A DNA stretch of 34,641 nt from contig JACVTC010000382.1 of the NCBI GenBank assembly GCA_016946835.1, forward strand, positions 1-34,641. The letters run 5' to 3'. The DNA is from Neocallimastix lanati (nom. inval.) (Eukaryota > Neocallimastigomycota > Neocallimastigomycetes > Neocallimastigales > Neocallimastigaceae). The position numbers and the translations under genes were made by a program. Shown here piece after piece: positions 8,495 through 25,453 of the stretch (its first letter is position 1; each line of letters starts with the position of its first letter). Below the pieces are notes generated by a model. The model was not told where the DNA came from. It made no database searches and was given only the letters and a program-made list of their open reading frames with translations.

Positions 8495-9333
8495 TGGTAA
8501 AGAACGAACATATAATGGATTATTAATTAGAATTTCAACTTACTTTAGAATCCATTATATTATTCTTTACTTAATATTACTTTACTATATTTTCTATACT
8601 AAAATATTTTTTAAATATATTTTTTTTATATTTTTATTAAAAGTTTCTAAAATATTATCAATAATTCTATATTTTTACTATTAATATCAATATCTATAAT
8701 TTACCTAAAATTTTATTATTTTATTAAAGTGTTTATTATCAATATTAATATTTTATTTTTATTTTCAAATATATTATTATATTATTATTATATTGTATCA
8801 ATATTAAACTTGTATTCTTTTTAGTATTTTATTTTATTTTTAAATTGATTATTTAATATTTTTTTTATTCCCCACAAATAAAATCAAATCTTAATTGATT
8901 AATAATAAATATTAAATATATTATAGTTTTTAAATTTATTTTATATAAAATATAAGAATATTATATTAACATTCTTGATTAAAATAACTTTATTTTTCTG
9001 TAAAATCTTTTTAAATTTTGTTTGTTACTTTTCGTATATATTAAATAATTTAGTTTTAGTATATGAAAAATAATATAAAATTATATAAACAAAATTTATT
9101 AAAATAAAAATACTTATGAATTAGTTAATTTAAATTAATATAAAATTTTAAGTAATTAGTAATAGTAAATATTTTTTTTTAAATATGATAATAAAATGTA
9201 GAAAGGCTTTACATATTTATTTTTTTTCAAAAAGTATAAATAAGTGAAGTTTTTCAATAATTAAAATGTAGACAAAAAGAATATTGAAAATAAATAATTA
9301 AATAAAAATTCTAATAAAACCCGAACCATAACA
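8495..9333 (+). repeat. E2 5' LTR
   Basis: 839 bp, TGGTAAAG to CCATAACA. Promoter-like elements: AGGCTTTACA (9204-9213) and TATAAATA (9235-9242). The end GAACCATAACA resembles GAACCATACCA of E3. Confidence 0.93.
9204..9242 (+). promoter_or_regulatory. E2 U3 promoter: AGGCTTTACA plus TATA box
   Basis: AGGCTTTACA is followed 21 bp later by TATAAATA. The E3 LTR, otherwise divergent, keeps both at almost the same spacing (18995-19004, 19025-19032), suggesting a conserved upstream element. The 3' LTR copy has TATAAATA at 17478-17485. Confidence 0.5.
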
Positions 9334-9340
9334 TAATTTA

Positions 9341-9358
9341 TGGTGGAGATATCGGGGA
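9341..9358 (+). promoter_or_regulatory. E2 primer binding site
   Basis: TGGTGGAGATATCGGGGA lies 7 nt after the LTR and is identical to E3. It would pair with a tRNA ending TCCCCGATATCTCCA-CCA, so the primer tRNA should have acceptor 5' strand GGAGATA. The isotype cannot be named from the window. Confidence 0.75.
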
Positions 9359-9414: not shown

Positions 9415-9577
9415 TGGATATAGATTTCCGGGCTAAGTTTAACCTACATAGTAATTGGGCTAGTAGGCTCTGGACTGCTGTATTTTATATTGAATACAGT
9501 AGCCGTGGTACCCGCGTGGCATGACGCCGTGAAGAGGCAAGCTGCACGTCAGACAGGGTATACTATCAGATTATCCA
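9415..9577 (+). ncRNA. Conserved structured leader RNA domain (E2 copy)
   Basis: A less AT-rich domain in the 5' leader, closed by TGGAT (9415-9419)/ATCCA (9573-9577). Other helices: CCTAC 9443-9447/GTAGG 9463-9467; CTGTATT 9478-9484/AATACAG 9493-9499; TACCC 9509-9513/GGGTA 9556-9560; GCC 9526-9528/GGC 9536-9538. E3 has the same domain at 19415-19578 with almost identical loops but compensatory changes in four of these helices. The RNA structure is therefore under selection; its function (packaging, dimerisation, translation or catalysis) is not shown by the sequence. Confidence 0.85.
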
Positions 9578-9699: not shown

Positions 9700-9886
9700 T
9701 TGGAAAACTTTGGAAAACTTTAGTTTTTGTAGTAACTTTATTTAATTATCGATTATAGAATAAAAAATAATAATAATAAAAAAAAAAATAATAAAAAGTT
9801 AACAAATTTACGAAGTTAATATTCGAGTAAGACAGTGTTAGCTTGCAGGATATTAATTTCATAAACTCTTATTTACAATTTTGCAA
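9578..9886 (+). repeat. E2 leader low-complexity segment with A54 tract
   Basis: An A-run at 9644-9697 is followed by repeats of CTTTGGAAAA (9698-9720) and AT-rich spacer. No gene seen. Confidence 0.7.
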
Positions 9887-10062
9887 GGTTTTGTAGATTG
9901 TAAACGCGAGTATCTCAAGGAACAAATCCTTGACAATTAGGCAAATACGCCCTAGAACTATAAAACCTTCACGCTGAAGGCAACTACACACTTCAACAGG
10001 TGATAGTTTGTTCACTCGCGCAGAAAATAAGAGGTGGGTCAGGTTCGATCCCTGATAAAACC
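9887..10062 (+). ncRNA. Helix-rich tRNA-like module in E2 leader
   Basis: A T-arm-like hairpin TCAGG-TTCGATC-CCTGA (10039-10055) is followed at once by TAAAACC (10056-10062), which pairs over 7 bp with GGTTTTG (9887-9893), as in the acceptor/T-arm unit of tRNA or tmRNA. Between them: CGCGAGT 9905-9911/ACTCGCG 10014-10020, TCAAGG 9915-9920/CCTTGA 9928-9933, TAGG 9938-9941/CCTA 9951-9954, CCTTCA 9966-9971/TGAAGG 9975-9980, and CAACTA 9981-9986/TAGTTTG 10004-10010. TAAAACC also occurs at 9961-9967, so GGTTTTG has an alternative partner giving a smaller cloverleaf-like fold. No homologue in the window; role unknown. Confidence 0.6.
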
Positions 10063-10140
10063 CTGGTCATTCTTGCGAAGTGACGTTAAAATATATAGTT
10101 TTTTTTATTTTTATTTTAGGCTTTTATAAATTTGTTCGCC

Positions 10141-11707: not shown

Positions 11708-12601
11708 ATGGCTGAAAATAAAATCAATTTTAAAGAATTAAAAAAGGAATTAAAAGATATCGAGAAAATTTCAAAGGAAAATCTCGATATCAAATCTTGG
11801 GAATCAGAAATCCGATTATGGATAAAACTTGAGGAAGTTACTGATCCCAAAAAGATTTTTACCGCCTGCTTACTCACGTCTACTGGAGAGCCTCGCGAAG
11901 TTATCCAGGATTTAATTGAAAGTTACAGTACCGATTCTGAATCAGAAAGTGAGGACGAAGAAGAAGAAGAATCTGATTCAGAAGAAAAGAAAAAAGATGA
12001 ATATCCTTCCTTAAAGGAAATTGTAGAAGCAATAGAAACTTTTTATGGTCTTAAAGAAGACCAGAATATGTTACTTCGTGAGCTCCGTGCTTTAAGAATT
12101 AAAAGAAATGAGCGAGTAAAAGACTTTAATACTCGTTTCCGATCCATATATTTGAAATTAGATAAGAAAAGAAAGAAGCGAGTCAGTGTTCTCGATTATA
12201 TTGATGCTCTTAGGAACAATGAAGAAGCTTGGAAAAAGGTCTCCCTTAAGGATGACATTTCTTTAAATCGGGCGTTTGACATTGCCGAAAAAGTTGATAG
12301 AGTAATGAATTTGAGACCCTCAAAAGAGTACTCAACTGAAATTGTCAACCCAAGAATAAATATCAGGAATAATTATCAAAACAACAGAAAGGTAGTAAGA
12401 GAGAATTATGAAGTTAGAAGCCCAAAAAGAAATAAAGATTACGAATTGGAGGACTTAACAAAAAAAATGAAAAATCTTACCATTAAAGCCTGTTTTTATT
12501 GTAGCGATCCAGGACATTTGCAGTATAATTGTCCTAAGTTAAATGCAATTATTCAAGAAAATAAGAAACGGTTATATAGTGGAAAATCTTTAAACCACTA
12601 A
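11708..12601 (+). CDS. gag: E2 Gag polyprotein
   Basis: Capsid/nucleocapsid protein, 297 residues from ATG 11708; the frame is open upstream to a TTG at 11669 but the E3 alignment supports the later start (AENKINFKELKKELK matches ESKLSFRELKKELK). A helical, charged capsid-like region is split by a Glu/Asp/Ser run (about residues 77-98), and a conserved block YPSLKEIVEAIETFYGLKED follows. A zinc knuckle lies at residues 262-275 (CFYCSDPGHLQYNC). Gag would assemble the particle and bind element RNA. The frame ends TTA-AAC-CAC-TAA, the heptamer overlapping its last codons, so a fraction of ribosomes should continue into pol. Confidence 0.92.
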   Translation: MAENKINFKELKKELKDIEKISKENLDIKSWESEIRLWIKLEEVTDPKKIFTACLLTSTGEPREVIQDLIESYSTDSESESEDEEEEESDSEEKKKDEYPSLKEIVEAIETFYGLKEDQNMLLRELRALRIKRNERVKDFNTRFRSIYLKLDKKRKKRVSVLDYIDALRNNEEAWKKVSLKDDISLNRAFDIAEKVDRVMNLRPSKEYSTEIVNPRINIRNNYQNNRKVVRENYEVRSPKRNKDYELEDLTKKMKNLTIKACFYCSDPGHLQYNCPKLNAIIQENKKRLYSGKSLNH

Positions 12602-15600: not shown

Positions 15601-15975
15601 GATGGTATAGATTATTTTATAGATGGAAATAATTATAGAAAACTTGTTACCGAAACAAATGAAAAACTAAAATTAATTCTCGAAGCACATCATGTTGGCT
15701 ATGAAGGTTATTATAAAACATATCAAAGACTTAGAAAAAGTTACTACTGGAATGATATGGTCAACGATATAAAACGGATAATTTCAAAATGCGAAAAATG
15801 TCAGTTAAATCGCCCTCAGCCATATCCAGAACCAACCGAAAACATTCCAACAGAAGTTGAAGGCCCTTTTACTCATCTTGGACTTGATATTATTGGTCCC
15901 TTAATAAAGACTGGTAATAAAAAACCAATATATCATTGTTGCGGTGGATTATTTCACAAAGTGGGTGGAGGCTGA
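12595..15975 (+). CDS. pol: E2 Pol: spacer, protease, RT, RNase H, integrase N-part (truncated by frameshift)
   Basis: Read in the -1 frame from the slippery site; there is no ATG at its head (the longest ORF by alternative start begins at TTG 12784). Numbering from 12784: a Lys/Glu-rich spacer to about residue 250, protease with Asp-Ser-Cys at 283-285 instead of DT/SG, RT with FIDD at 635-638, RNase H with TDAS Asp784, then the integrase HHCC domain. The frame breaks near 15925-15935 in an A6 run just before the first integrase Asp, and the product would end in an unrelated tail at 15975. One A too many restores the E3-like reading. A sequencing error is possible; if real, this copy cannot make integrase. 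Confidence 0.9.
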   Translation, partial: PLKGRGSTPYKNKIASLQYKSIPSSTNDYNKEEKEDASYTNETHKESDNENDVEFIVSATKRKLTTNDETSENNEKRQRKSLKDNPTPITTPAIRKIKEKEIENRIIVKNKNQLHPSIMAQPNINIEKAKEKQIRNKERANFGNNKGKRKEREDNITIREKQSLDSSKQRNSISTTSDKMHQRLNKLIDNENDKIIKTKQINEMEVIEVPEKLNDEGHENITLQKLIDFQEPKEKATISRTLRNIKMCKDQEEYNVLQDLNETKCNISFGQLLNVSPKVRSQVSQGLKLEKPEKKIIGALNNTIAAATLVNNIDHSYISKSKETSEEDIAMVDVTVDEIPGKALIDSCSNLNVITKKFYEKLPGNYEEVGISRGRIRLATKNDEYSEGIIVRIPVKINDYKMIVDFRIIDDDDPFYDLLINFQTQVEHNLFIHPIRYSLCQFNSQGLIDVIAPINNNFQEEEKLVCIVRKILEDEDTTNELKKLEGLSPQEYIHDEKFLASLCKDYKDVIVKLLEENLDIIATSSEELTPSDLAPHKINLKANAKPVKQRCYRVTKFKSDIIKEELIKLIKKKLVVPSYSEWSSPVVVVPKANGKWRLCVDYRKVNDLTEKDSYALPYIDEIFDSLDGAKIFTTMDLYSGYHQILMDEESVEITSFTTKFGNYQFKVMPFGLTGAPATFQREMNRILFPLIGKCVFNFIDDILIYSKTVEEHIQHIKQVLAIFKENKLKINIEKCHFMQTEVEVLGHKISTKGLSPQNSKIEAIKAWKEPTNIHELRSFLGAVGYYRNFINEYAQTSAPLCKLLRKGVKYKWNNEQKQSFTKLKEKLINAPILKYPDFSKEFIILTDASYEGIGGVLLQKDESEIEHPIHFISRSLTKAEKNYGITDLEGTALYYCITKLKPYIMGSPFRTIVFTDHKPLLGLFNNKEPNNARQTRWCLTASMLKVDIRYEQGKKNVVADALSRMKNDKEQKVLAIKTNKDDENDSLSKVIKEFIEEKFTKIDGIDYFIDGNNYRKLVTETNEKLKLILEAHHVGYEGYYKTYQRLRKSYYWNDMVNDIKRIISKCEKCQLNRPQPYPEPTENIPTEVEGPFTHLGLDIIGPLIKTGNKKPIYHCCGGLFHKVGGG

Positions 15976-16732: not shown

Positions 16733-17574
16733 TGGTAAAGAACGAACATATAATGGATTATTAATTAGAATTTCAACTTACTTTAGAATCCATTATATTA
16801 TTCTTTACTTAATATTACTTTACTATATTTTCTATACTAAAATATTTTCTAAATATATTTTTTTTTATATTTTTATTAAAAGTTTCTAAAATATTATCAA
16901 TAATTCTATATTTTTACTATTAATATCAATATCTATAATTTACCTTAAATTTTATTATTTTATTAAAGTGTTTATTATCAATATTAATATTTTATTTTTA
17001 TTTTCAAATATATTATTATATTATTATTATATTGTATCAATATTAAACTTGTATTCTTTTTAGTATTTTATTTTATTTTTAAATTGATTATTTAATATTT
17101 TTTTATTCCCCACAAATAAAATCAAATCTTAATTGATTAATAATAAATATTAAATATATTATAGTTTTTAAATTTATTTTATATAAAATATAAGAATATT
17201 ATATTAACATTCTTGATTAAAATAACTTTATTTTTCTGTAAAATCTTTTTAAATTTTGCTTGATACTTTTCGTATATATTAAATAATTTAGTTTTAGTAT
17301 ATGAAAAATAATATAAAATTATATAAACAAAATTTATTAAAATAAAAATACTTATGAATTAGTTAATTTAAATTAATATAAAATTTTAAGTAATTAGTAA
17401 TAGTAAATATTTTTTTTTTTTTTAAATATGATAATAAAATGTAGAAAGGCTTTACATATTTATTTTTTTTCAAAAAGTATAAATAAGTGAAGTTTTTCAA
17501 TAATTAAAATGTAGACAGAAAAATATTAAAAATAAATAATTAAATAAAATTCTAATAAAACCCGAACCATAACA
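16733..17574 (+). repeat. E2 3' LTR
   Basis: 842 bp. It differs from the 5' LTR by a few substitutions and T-run length changes. Ends CCATAACA, followed by CTGA. Confidence 0.93.
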
Positions 17575-18435
17575 CTGATGTTACGGTACAATTAAATAAA
17601 GAAAAATTAAACTATTTAAAGAAAATATTAAAGTAAAAAATATCATTAACAATTATAAATAAATAATAAAAATTTGAATATTAAAATATTAGTTATAGAA
17701 TATTATAAAGTTAAATAAAAATAATTAGATGTATTAAAAAATCATGTATTAATTATATTATTTAATATTGTAAAATTTTTATATTATATTTTAATAATTT
17801 AGAAAATTTAAGCTTATTATATTTTTATTATTATATTTTTATTATTAAATTTTTATTATTAAATTTTTATTATTAATTTTTTTTATTTTTATTTTTAATC
17901 CAATCAAATAAATATTTTATTAGTATAAAAAAGAACAAAGTAACACAATACTTTTGTTCTCTCCCTTTTTTTCTTACGACTTTATTATTATATTATTTTT
18001 TTAATATTTTCTAAAAGTTAAATAATAAAATTAAATAGTTTAAAATAAATTAAAATTTATTAAATAGTTTTTTCTAAATTTAATGTTTTAAAAGTGTTTA
18101 ATTAATAGTTTTTTGTGTTTAGTGTATAATATTAAGATAAGTATAGTATAAAATTAGTTTAGTAATAGATTAGTTGTATTAAACATTTTATAGAAATAGT
18201 AATAGATTTAGAGAAATTGTTTAGTTTAGATTAGAATAGTTTAGATTAAGATATTAGTTTAAGTTATTTTAACTTAGTTTAGATTCTTTTAGATTAGGAT
18301 AGTTTAGACTAAAATTAGAGTAGTTTATTAATTAATTTAGGTTTAGAATTAGAGAATAATATTTTAAATTTTTCCTTATTATTAGAATATATTATTTTAT
18401 TAATAAAATCTTCAGATCTTGTACCACTGAAGATT
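17575..18435. other. Middle part of outer LTR between E2 and E3 (noncoding)
   Basis: Begins with the E2 target CTGA and ends with the E3 target GATT (18432-18435). No ORF. Contents: a hairpin AGAACAAAGT/ACTTTTGTTCT (17932-17960) followed by a C/T run; a 200-bp stretch (about 18120-18345) of degenerate TTTAGATTAG-like repeats; and CTTCAG 18410-18415/CTGAAG 18427-18432 just before the E3 insertion point. Confidence 0.6.
18432..18435. repeat. E3 target-site duplication GATT (left)
   Basis: GATT precedes the E3 5' LTR. The next copy (25454-25457) follows the E3 3' LTR and also precedes E4, and a third copy (33616-33619) follows E4. Confidence 0.8.
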
Positions 18436-19224
18436 TAATACAGAATGAACAAATAATACTAATTGTGCTAGAATAATATAAATTATTCTAACCTTATAGA
18501 TTATTCTATTCTATATAATTGGAACTTTCCAATATTCTTCAAATATTACTAAATAGAAATCTTAAGTTAATAAATCACTAATTAACTTATAATTCCTTTT
18601 TGAATTATCGATCCGATTCCATTATAATGTATTAAAAATTTTTAGCCAAGAATATTGTCCTTGCCCACTTAATATATTAATATTATATTTCTTTTGTATT
18701 ATGTTATATTGAAAATAATCAAATCTATTTAATTAGTTATTAAAATTTTCATTATCAATTTAAATTTACTTTTAATTACTAAATTTAACTAAACCACAAT
18801 AAAATATTCTGTATAATCTCTTTATTTTTATTTTATATATATTAGTATTAAACTATTATTAAATAATTAATAATTCAATAATATATAACTACTATTTATA
18901 ACAATAATATTATTAACTAAAATAATAATTCAATTTCAATTTAAATGTTTTATTTATAAAAATAATTAGTAATTAGTTTATTAAAAAAATAGTTAGGCTT
19001 TACAAATTTTAATTTGATAAAAAATATAAATACATGTAATTTTAGTGAAATAAAATATAATCAATAACTTTCTTTTTATTAAATAAATAATTATATTATT
19101 ATTTTTCTTTTATAAATTTAAATAAATAAATATTGATTTTAAAACAAATTATTTTTTTTTTTATTGTAATTTTATTATTTGTGTTAATTATTATTATATT
19201 CCTAAAATTATATGAACCATACCA
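18436..19224 (+). repeat. E3 5' LTR
   Basis: 789 bp, TAATACAG to CCATACCA. AGGCTTTACA at 18995-19004 and TATAAATA at 19025-19032. Same length and, as read, same sequence as 24665-25453. Confidence 0.93.
18995..19032 (+). promoter_or_regulatory. E3 U3 promoter: AGGCTTTACA plus TATA box
   Basis: Same pair of motifs as in E2 in an otherwise unalignable LTR, 20 bp apart. Confidence 0.5.
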
Positions 19225-19232
19225 TGAAAAAT

Positions 19233-19250
19233 TGGTGGAGATATCGGGGA
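19233..19250 (+). promoter_or_regulatory. E3 primer binding site
   Basis: TGGTGGAGATATCGGGGA, 8 nt after the LTR and identical to E2, so both use the same tRNA primer. Confidence 0.75.
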
Positions 19251-19414: not shown

Positions 19415-19578
19415 CGTGCATAGATTTCCGGGTTAAGTTTATCCTACATAGTAATTGGGCTAGTAGGCTCTGGACTGCTATTTTTTATATTGAAAATAGT
19501 AACCGTGGCACACGCGTGGCATGACACCTTTCAAGAGGTAAGCTGCACGTCAGACAGTGTGTACTATCAGATTGCACG
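19415..19578 (+). ncRNA. Conserved structured leader RNA domain (E3 copy)
   Basis: Closed by CGTGC (19415-19419)/GCACG (19574-19578). Helices CTATTTT 19478-19484/AAAATAG 19493-19499, CACAC 19509-19513/GTGTG 19557-19561, and ACCT 19526-19529/AGGT 19536-19539. Each replaces a different but equally paired helix in E2, while single-stranded blocks such as ATAGATTTCCGGG are unchanged. Gag begins 157 nt downstream. Confidence 0.85.
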
Positions 19579-19734: not shown

Positions 19735-20652
19735 ATGAGAACATCCAGTACTTCCAGTACTCCAACAGAGAGTACTCCAGAAAGTAAGCTTAGCTTCAGA
19801 GAATTAAAGAAAGAATTAAAAGATTTTGAAAAGCTTACTAAACAAAACCTTGACATCAACTCCTGGGCAAATGAGTTAAAGGCATGGATAAAATACCAAC
19901 ATATCAAGGATCCTGAAACTATTTTTACTGCTTGTATATTAACGGCTTCTGGAGAACCAAGAGAAATTATCCAAGAACTAGAAGATGGAAATGACCTTAC
20001 TGAAGATGAAGATTCTGATTTCGATAGCGATAGTGAAGGAGAAGATGATGAAGAAAGTGAATCTACTACCACCTACCCAAGCCTTGATGAAATTATAAAT
20101 CATCTGAAGACTTTCTATGGACTTAAAGAAGATCAAACCAACTTGTTACGAGAATTGCGTTCCATGAAAATAAAGAAGAACGAGAAAGTTAAAGATTTTA
20201 ATGTCCGTTATAGATCTTTGTACCATAAATTGGATAAAAAGAGAAGAAGAAAAATTAGTGTTTTAGATTATGCAGATTCCTTAACCAATAATCCTGACGC
20301 ATGGAGAAAGGTTATGCTTAAAGACCATATTTCTATTACCAAAGCATTCGCTATAGCTGAAAAAGTTGATCGTTTATCTATTAAAAATAGTACTGAATAT
20401 TATGATAAGACTCGTTACAATCTCCTTAACTCTAAAAGTAATTTTAATAAGAACATTTCAAATGATTTTAACAAACCAAAAACCCACAAAAATGTATCTA
20501 TAGAAAATCTCACTAACAAGATGAAAGAAATGAAAATTAGTACTTGCTGGTTTTGTAGCAATGAAGGACATACCAAACGAAACTGTCCTAAATTAAATTC
20601 TATATTGGAAAATAACCGCAAGAAGTTTTATGAAAATTATTTAAACCACTAA
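19735..20652 (+). CDS. gag: E3 Gag polyprotein
   Basis: 305 residues from ATG 19735. A short Ser/Thr/Pro-rich N-terminus is followed by a charged helical capsid-like region with the block ELKKELKDFEKL, an acidic Ser/Asp/Glu run (about residues 88-113), YPSLDEIINHLKTFYGLKED, and a zinc knuckle at residues 271-284 (CWFCSNEGHTKRNC). It builds the particle shell and packages RNA. Clearly homologous to E2 Gag and only loosely to E4. The C-terminus reads through TTA-AAC-CAC to TAA 20650-20652, inside the frameshift signal. No lesions seen. Confidence 0.94.
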   Translation: MRTSSTSSTPTESTPESKLSFRELKKELKDFEKLTKQNLDINSWANELKAWIKYQHIKDPETIFTACILTASGEPREIIQELEDGNDLTEDEDSDFDSDSEGEDDEESESTTTYPSLDEIINHLKTFYGLKEDQTNLLRELRSMKIKKNEKVKDFNVRYRSLYHKLDKKRRRKISVLDYADSLTNNPDAWRKVMLKDHISITKAFAIAEKVDRLSIKNSTEYYDKTRYNLLNSKSNFNKNISNDFNKPKTHKNVSIENLTNKMKEMKISTCWFCSNEGHTKRNCPKLNSILENNRKKFYENYLNH

Positions 20653-24641: not shown

Positions 24642-24664
24642 CTTGAGTCTTAGCGGGGGCATCT
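24625..24664 (+). promoter_or_regulatory. E3 3' stem-loop and polypurine tract
   Basis: ACTCAGCT 24625-24632/AGCTTGAGT 24640-24648 with one bulge, overlapping the pol stop, then AGCGGGGGC (24652-24660) plus ATCT before the LTR. The loop sequence differs from E2 while the stem is kept. Confidence 0.65.
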
Positions 24665-25453
24665 TAATACAGAATGAACAAATAATACTAATTGTGCTAG
24701 AATAATATAAATTATTCTAACCTTATAGATTATTCTATTCTATATAATTGGAACTTTCCAATATTCTTCAAATATTACTAAATAGAAATCTTAAGTTAAT
24801 AAATCACTAATTAACTTATAATTCCTTTTTGAATTATCGATCCGATTCCATTATAATGTATTAAAAATTTTTAGCCAAGAATATTGTCCTTGCCCACTTA
24901 ATATATTAATATTATATTTCTTTTGTATTATGTTATATTGAAAATAATCAAATCTATTTAATTAGTTATTAAAATTTTCATTATCAATTTAAATTTACTT
25001 TTAATTACTAAATTTAACTAAACCACAATAAAATATTCTGTATAATCTCTTTATTTTTATTTTATATATATTAGTATTAAACTATTATTAAATAATTAAT
25101 AATTCAATAATATATAACTACTATTTATAACAATAATATTATTAACTAAAATAATAATTCAATTTCAATTTAAATGTTTTATTTATAAAAATAATTAGTA
25201 ATTAGTTTATTAAAAAAATAGTTAGGCTTTACAAATTTTAATTTGATAAAAAATATAAATACATGTAATTTTAGTGAAATAAAATATAATCAATAACTTT
25301 CTTTTTATTAAATAAATAATTATATTATTATTTTTCTTTTATAAATTTAAATAAATAAATATTGATTTTAAAACAAATTATTTTTTTTTTTATTGTAATT
25401 TTATTATTTGTGTTAATTATTATTATATTCCTAAAATTATATGAACCATACCA
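24665..25453 (+). repeat. E3 3' LTR
   Basis: 789 bp, apparently identical to the 5' LTR. Followed directly by GATT and then the E4 5' LTR. Confidence 0.93.

Follow-up and report, generated by a model that had tools for sequence, protein, structure and literature searches.

Locus and RNA domain

The window analysed here is the whole 34,641-nucleotide (nt) stretch of contig JACVTC010000382.1 (assembly GCA_016946835.1, positions 1 to 34,641, forward strand) of the anaerobic-fungus lineage Neocallimastigaceae, from Neocallimastix lanati (nom. inval.). It holds four long terminal repeat (LTR) elements, E1 to E4, whose LTR pairs are identical to 100% over 790 nt in E3, 99.9% in E1, 99.7% in E4 and 98.2% in E2. 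The leaders of E2 and E3 carry a structured RNA domain, which its pattern of covariation marks as a selected RNA fold. The two copies are:

9415..9577, + strand: structured RNA domain of E2, core form; compensated pairs with E3; matched by covariance model R1 (see below) at 9415-9575, E 3.3e-8
19415..19578, + strand: structured RNA domain of E3, core form; compensated pairs with E2; matched by R1 at 19416-19577, E 4.7e-6

Compensatory changes between the E2 and E3 domains

Coordinates and letters of both domains were as the initial annotation had given them. The four helices named there have 20 pairs, every one canonical in E2 as well as in E3; nine of them are changed on both strands between the two elements, in the same 4+2+2+1 split that had been reported. 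The domains differ by 23 substitutions and one indel, and 18 of the 23 substitutions fall in the nine fully compensated pairs. Simulating 23 random substitutions in 20,000 runs yielded a maximum of 3 compensated pairs, with a mean of 0.17. In a self-comparison of the window, E2 9420-9572 matched E3 19420-19573 at 89.6%, and the flanks were without a match.

The GC content of the domain is 46% in E2 and 44% in E3, compared with 18-21% in the surroundings of the E2 domain. Folding energies are mildly low (z -1.78 for E2 and -1.82 for E3; 12/200 and 8/200 shuffles, respectively, were as stable or better), and the minimum-energy folds of the two domains disagree with each other. Thus, the case for the fold is one of covariation and not of energy.

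Architecture of the core

In its core form, the domain consists of a closing helix, P1, around three arms (P2 with P3, P4, and P5), with the P6 hairpin terminal and beside a conserved internal loop. Two features go beyond the initial annotation: P1 has an inner part (GAU/AUC) together with an internal loop, and an extra helix, P2, pairs UCCGGG 9427-9432 with UCUGGA 9469-9474. The parts of the E2 domain are:

9415..9425, + strand: 5' strand of P1; outer UGGAU 9415-9419 (partner 9573-9577) and inner GAU 9423-9425 (partner AUC 9565-9567); anchored test
9427..9474, + strand: P2 enclosing P3; 98.2% of the P2 cells pair in 11 related sequences
within 9443-9467, + strand: P3; CCUAC 9443-9447 with GUAGG 9463-9467 and UAG 9449-9451 with CUA 9460-9462; 98.3% of cells pair in 11 related sequences
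9478..9499, + strand: P4 hairpin CUGUAUU/AAUACAG; two compensated pairs from E2 to E3, and two-sided changes in 3/10 pairs among related sequences
9509..9560, + strand: P5; UACCC 9509-9513 with GGGUA 9556-9560, then GCGUG 9514-9518 with CACGU 9545-9549; P5a anchored test
9520..9544, + strand: P6 module, common to the family; conserved internal loop CAUGAC/AAGCUG and hairpin GCC-loop-GGC (9526-9528/9536-9538)

A family of about 12 lineages in one genome

All homologues were drawn from one genome of 199 Mb, the same as that of the window. A 23-nt core pattern of E2 and E3 occurs at 604 genome sites at no more than 3 mismatches, whereas its reversed control occurs at none. The 56 copies fetched (L001-L056), a sample partly picked for non-identity, form two tight families, the E2 type and the E3 type, and most are 0-3 letters away from one of these. 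Small indels occur in some, and L034 and L035 are truncated.

Early patterns that excluded the E2/E3 form and were meant to catch variants found 0 sites. A later pattern, which excluded the E2/E3 flanks of the P3 loop, caught L057, where CCUGU/ACAGG replaces CCUAC/GUAGG of P3 and the P4 hairpin is quite different. Loci with the same primer-binding site yielded L064 as well as three larger forms, L059, L060 and L074. A motif scan recovered the shared module in nine of the 20 loci fetched in this way (L059-L063, L066, L067, L074 and L075), and L064, also among the 20, was recognised by BLAST. L058 is an apparent shortened remnant in which R1 gives no match. Searching for the module CATGA.RCCGTAATAGG.RAGCTG with GGAAATG after it gave 62 sites (control 0) and added the L078, L079 and L080 types; the pattern ATTTCCGGHNTAAGTTTA gave 44 (control 0) and added the L085 type, with 17 sites, and the L089 type, with 26. 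Altogether, the domain family comprises about 12 lineages in the genome. L057, L064 and L080, found at one place each, may be old copies, and the L064 locus is decayed, lacking any open reading frame (ORF) of 80 residues.

Several features recur across these lineages. The inner flanks of P1 read UUCCGG (5') and AUACU (3') in most of them; the P2 consensus is CCGGN/UCUGG. P5 leads into the internal loop CAUGAY/RAGCUG and on to P6, which has three pairs and a loop that reads GUAAUA in seven lineages. In most other lineages, the domain exceeds 163 nt. Inspection of the larger forms shows three additions: a 5' hairpin in which UGAUAG faces CGGUGAA, another hairpin, AGUACG...UUUAGAAGC, and the 3' stretch GGAAAUGC. 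L080 joins an E2-like core with such outer parts, and E2, E3, L057 and L064 may for this reason be reduced forms, the direction of change being inferred. By eye, the lower pairs of P5 are mostly lost in L057, and part of P3 is missing in L064.

Outside this genome, two DNA patterns and an E3 Gag query found no relatives in viral contigs, and one pattern found none in GTDB genome contigs. In Rfam 15 the window has no match at the gathering cut-off, and searches at a weak threshold, run on the two domains and on 11 related loci, turned up nothing but matches far below that cut-off. This agrees with the initial annotation, which had recognised no known ribozyme or internal ribosome entry site (IRES) class. 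Among the listed matches of full-text literature searches, no paper describes the fold.

Covariance model and covariation tests

Four lineages (L060, L078, L074 and L079, with close variants) supplied the 11 sequences behind model R1; E2, E3, L057, L059, L064, L080, L085 and L089 were left out. Searched over 64,871 bases, R1 recovered L059 (E 2.6e-11), L080 (2.3e-6), L064 (1.2e-4) and L057 (0.011); these E-values are rough, owing to a short calibration. Two weak extra matches in L057 (E 2.3 and 4) are chance-like. All nine loci L085-L093 were matched. Within the window, R1 placed the E2 and E3 domains to within two bases of the coordinates in the initial annotation and matched nothing else, so that E1 and E4 are without a match.

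RNAalifold, applied to 11 extended sequences, predicted 62 pairs, 28 of them with two-sided changes. Our drawn structure was made with this fold in view, from the same 11 sequences: 94.0% of its 517 cells pair, and 21 of its 47 pairs show two-sided changes. Slid versions of the structure pair at 35-42%, a control that flatters it because it was drawn from the same sequences. The covariation score was 0.444 compared with 0.226 in shuffles, none of 500 scoring as high, and the count of two-sided pairs was equalled in 1/500; further pair types show no excess (444/500 shuffles as high). Two-sided changes affect 8 of the 11 pairs of P3 and none of P2.

In a fairer, anchored test, strands were taken by conserved unpaired anchors in 11 of the 12 lineages, L064 being left out. 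P1 gave 56/77 canonical pairs within lineages versus 408/770 in cross-lineage pairings (0/5000 permutations as high), P5a 49/55 versus 339/550 (1/5000) and P6 31/33 versus 276/330 (12/5000). L59 was mis-anchored for P1 and P5a and kept in the test, which lowers the native score; since the lineages are related, the permutation figures are not strict probabilities. Judged by these shuffles and permutations, homologues of the domain carry two-sided compensatory changes beyond chance. Covariance-model homologues and covariation counts were the checks that the initial annotation had proposed, and both bear out its suggestion of a selected fold.

Element setting

The features that surround the domain in E2 and E3 are:

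8495..9333, + strand: 5' LTR of E2; partner 16733-17574, 98.2% self-match
9341..9357, + strand: putative primer-binding site of E2, from its position after the LTR end; common to E3 (19233-19249) and other domain-bearing elements
11708..12601, + strand: gag of E2 with CCHC zinc knuckle (zf-CCHC 19.3 bits, under the 20.8 cut-off)
18435..19224, + strand: 5' LTR of E3; partner 24664-25453, 100% self-match over 790 nt
19735..20652, + strand: gag of E3 with CCHC zinc knuckle (zf-CCHC 18.5 bits, under the 20.8 cut-off)

Both elements share the order LTR, primer-binding site, domain and gag, with a gap between domain and gag of about 2.1 kb in E2 and 156 nt in E3. On what we infer to be the transcribed genomic RNA, the domain lies between the primer-binding site and gag. 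The primer-binding site is found upstream of the domain in 54 of the 56 E2/E3-type copies, and the fetched stretch downstream yields a gag match in 41. Of the 15 misses, 14 are E2-type copies in which the fetched stretch stops before gag or within its first ~220 nt, and the other is L034. Gag proteins of the seven other gag-matched loci (L060, L061, L063, L064, L066, L074 and L075) are 46-64% identical to E2/E3 Gag, and E4 Gag is a distant relative of E3 Gag (24.5%). A reverse transcriptase piece of E3 matches RVT_1 in Pfam with 144.5 bits. The carriers of the domain are one group of Ty3-type LTR retrotransposons.

The end of the LTR, CCCGAACC... (window 9320-9357), can pair with the primer-binding site, GGTGGAGATATCGGGG, in a U5-PBS-like hairpin (between LTR end and primer-binding site) that was seen by eye in several families, with matching LTR ends in L060, L074 and L078. 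One pattern found no tRNA gene with a 3' end fully matching the shared primer-binding site. L068-L073, L076 and L077 have the letters of the primer-binding site followed directly by long GAA-rich runs, which is another context. In the E2 leader, 9874-10083 is a second GC-richer stretch with a tRNA T-arm-like run, GGGTCAGGTTCGATCCCTGA; ARAGORN found no tRNA in it and Rfam no match, and the stretch may stem from the insertion of a short element, which would have lengthened this leader. The long pol frame of E2 stops at 15975, and an overlapping second frame begins at 15944, so the copy looks interrupted at 15944-15975.

AUG scarcity and a tiny upstream ORF

In 12 leader segments from six lineages (L059 and L066 counted as one), AUG is observed 24 times versus 83.5 expected from dinucleotide shuffles. 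Six other trinucleotides in the same segments stand at 0.90-1.07; CAT is low too (51/83.5, 0.61), one segment giving 13.8 of the shortfall of 32.5. E1 and E4, whose leaders are without the domain, show no depletion there (observed/expected 42/47.6 and 3/2.4). Further loci, counted over ~320 nt up to P6, gave 0/5.1 (L079), 0/4.1 (L085), 1/4.5 (L081), 2/5.7 (L089) and 4/4.7 (L080). L080 and, outside these further loci, L059 (3/5.3) are upstream exceptions that are not clearly AUG-poor. After P6, where 200-280 nt were examined, none of the five further loci L079, L080, L081, L085 and L089 is depleted. That most of these leaders are AUG-poor suggests that ribosomes probably scan most of them, L059 and L080 being the exceptions upstream.

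The P6 module itself holds an AUG, which opens a tiny ORF in E2:

9521..9532, + strand: tiny upstream ORF of E2, AUG ACG CCG UGA; E3 counterpart 19521-19541; lies within P5/P6, towards the 3' end of the fold

Between the primer-binding site and this domain AUG there is no other AUG in E2, E3, L060, L074 and L078; L059 has three, and L081 and L064 one each. AUGs are present in some LTR ends (E2, E3, L059 and L081), and the domain AUG is for that reason not proven to be the first. In E3, the gag AUG is the next one after it.

Nine of the 12 lineages have the P6-module AUG, each with an in-frame stop within 7 codons. It is missing from L064 and L089, which read CAAGAC, and from L085, which reads ACACAA. 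ATGAC is kept in 55 of the 56 E2/E3-type copies, and in 53 of these a stop follows within 8 codons, as expected for young copies. The upstream ORF was considered as the function of the domain and demoted, the AUG being gone in three of the 12 lineages, two of which retain the fold. The two are L085 and L089, the former with the GUAAUA loop as well, which argues that the RNA itself is conserved. Across the family, the conserved feature is thus the fold, not the ORF.

Possible functions

We tentatively favour a role for the domain as a cis-acting element of the genomic RNA, serving packaging, dimerisation or the start of reverse transcription and read by Gag or used in priming. This reading draws on its position, the company of one group of Gags, the conserved unpaired stretches and the independence from the AUG. 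The domain co-occurs with related Gags and is absent, by R1, from E4, whose Gag is distant; passages of two papers place packaging and dimerisation signals at the 5' ends of retroelements (PMC4974528, PMC11381356). The element's own Gag, with its zinc-knuckle nucleocapsid, would bind conserved unpaired stretches of the domain and so mark full-length RNA for packaging, dimerisation or the start of reverse transcription, and the AUG-poor leader would let scanning ribosomes reach gag on RNAs not engaged by Gag. Several points weigh against this proposal. A kissing dimer would need a palindromic loop, and none was seen by eye, without a count, to be kept across lineages. There is no matched precedent in Ty3, whose sequences for RNA localisation and packaging are described in a passage of PMC11381356 as not precisely defined. 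The scarcity of AUG reveals that translation is under selection in most leaders, something not expected of a pure packaging element.

The main rival is a role in translation, in which an upstream ORF of 3-6 codons would be translated and the fold would then aid reinitiation at gag, in the manner of GCN4 uORF1. The AUG depletion, unlike the domain-less leaders of E1 and E4 and recurring in L079, L085, L081 and L089, fits this proposal, as do the short ORFs of the nine lineages. However, three lineages do without the AUG, L085 and L089 with the fold still in place, and the second codon of the ORF varies (Thr, Lys, Ile). L059 and L080 are not clearly AUG-poor, depletion does not continue after P6 in the five further loci, and AUGs in the LTR ends of four elements may precede that of the domain. 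We regard translation control as possible but rather unlikely. Ribosomes might instead bypass the fold by a shunt, or be recruited to it, and scan on to gag. The leader is indeed long and structured, and the 0.2-2.2 kb from the domain AUG to gag are AUG-poor in E2, L060, L066 and L074, the interval in E3 (0/1.6) being too short to tell. Such a mechanism is nevertheless decidedly unlikely: a shunt would have the short ORF just before the base of the stem, whereas here it lies inside the fold (P5/P6), near the 3' end, and the shortage of AUG ahead of the domain in E2, E3, L060, L074, L078, L079 and L085 points to scanning through it and away from cap-independent loading there. With AUG scarce on both sides of the domain in most lineages, a strict IRES is disfavoured.

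Leader location, and the length of the leader in some lineages, would also suit an element for nuclear export or stability of the unspliced RNA; the sequence offers nothing specific to it, and we consider it improbable. Large conserved unpaired stretches around the junction could likewise belong to a self-cleaving or otherwise catalytic RNA, or to an aptamer. Rfam offers no match of any kind at its gathering level, and cleavage between the primer-binding site and gag would part the two on the genomic RNA, making this the most doubtful of the readings.

A helix that excludes P5 bears on a further idea. It joins columns 60-68 and 186-194 of alignment A2, and within the L060/L074/L078/L079 group 93.9% of its 99 cells pair. 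Its conflict with P5 kept it out of the model; by eye, no counterpart was seen in E2, E3, L059 or L080. This alternative helix is a possible second state of the domain. Scanning ribosomes would unfold the domain, and Gag binding would refold and capture it, with the alternative helix as the second state. The family might then be a new class of RNA in LTR retrotransposons, made up of a conserved core plus optional outer domains and deciding between translation and packaging of one RNA, a speculative and on balance unlikely proposal.

Comparison with known systems

The cis signals of Ty3-type elements are poorly defined. Here the copies number several hundred and the diverged lineages about a dozen, all within one genome, which amounts to a natural covariation experiment. 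It yields a covariance model that works and a 163-nt core compact enough for tests. Together, the fold and the AUG-poor leader make the double service of one RNA, as message and as genome, directly testable.

The setting of the domain is reminiscent of the 5' packaging and dimerisation region of Ty1 and Ty3, where structured RNA lies at the 5' end of an LTR-retrotransposon RNA, near the primer-binding site and gag, and where Ty3 Gag has a zinc knuckle. The comparison extends to location and type of Gag, not to homology of sequence or structure, and the domain described here is a covarying structure of 160 to about 300 nt. Whereas the dimer site proposed for yeast Ty3 is, in a passage of PMC11381356, a short palindrome, none was seen conserved here.

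GCN4 uORF1 and its 5' reinitiation-promoting elements likewise combine a short upstream ORF with folded RNA in a scanned leader (PMC3131280). Here, however, the fold encloses the ORF, and three of 12 lineages have no AUG for it. Plant pararetroviruses with short-ORF shunt leaders are similar in being reverse-transcribing elements with a long structured leader and a short ORF. The position of ORF and stem differs, and the leader here is AUG-poor, not rich in short ORFs (PMC3291615).

Retrozymes, which bear hammerhead ribozymes in retrotransposons, offer another case of an RNA fold carried by such elements (PMC4918200). Unlike these, the domain of E2 and E3 matches neither the hammerhead nor any other Rfam family at the gathering cut-off.
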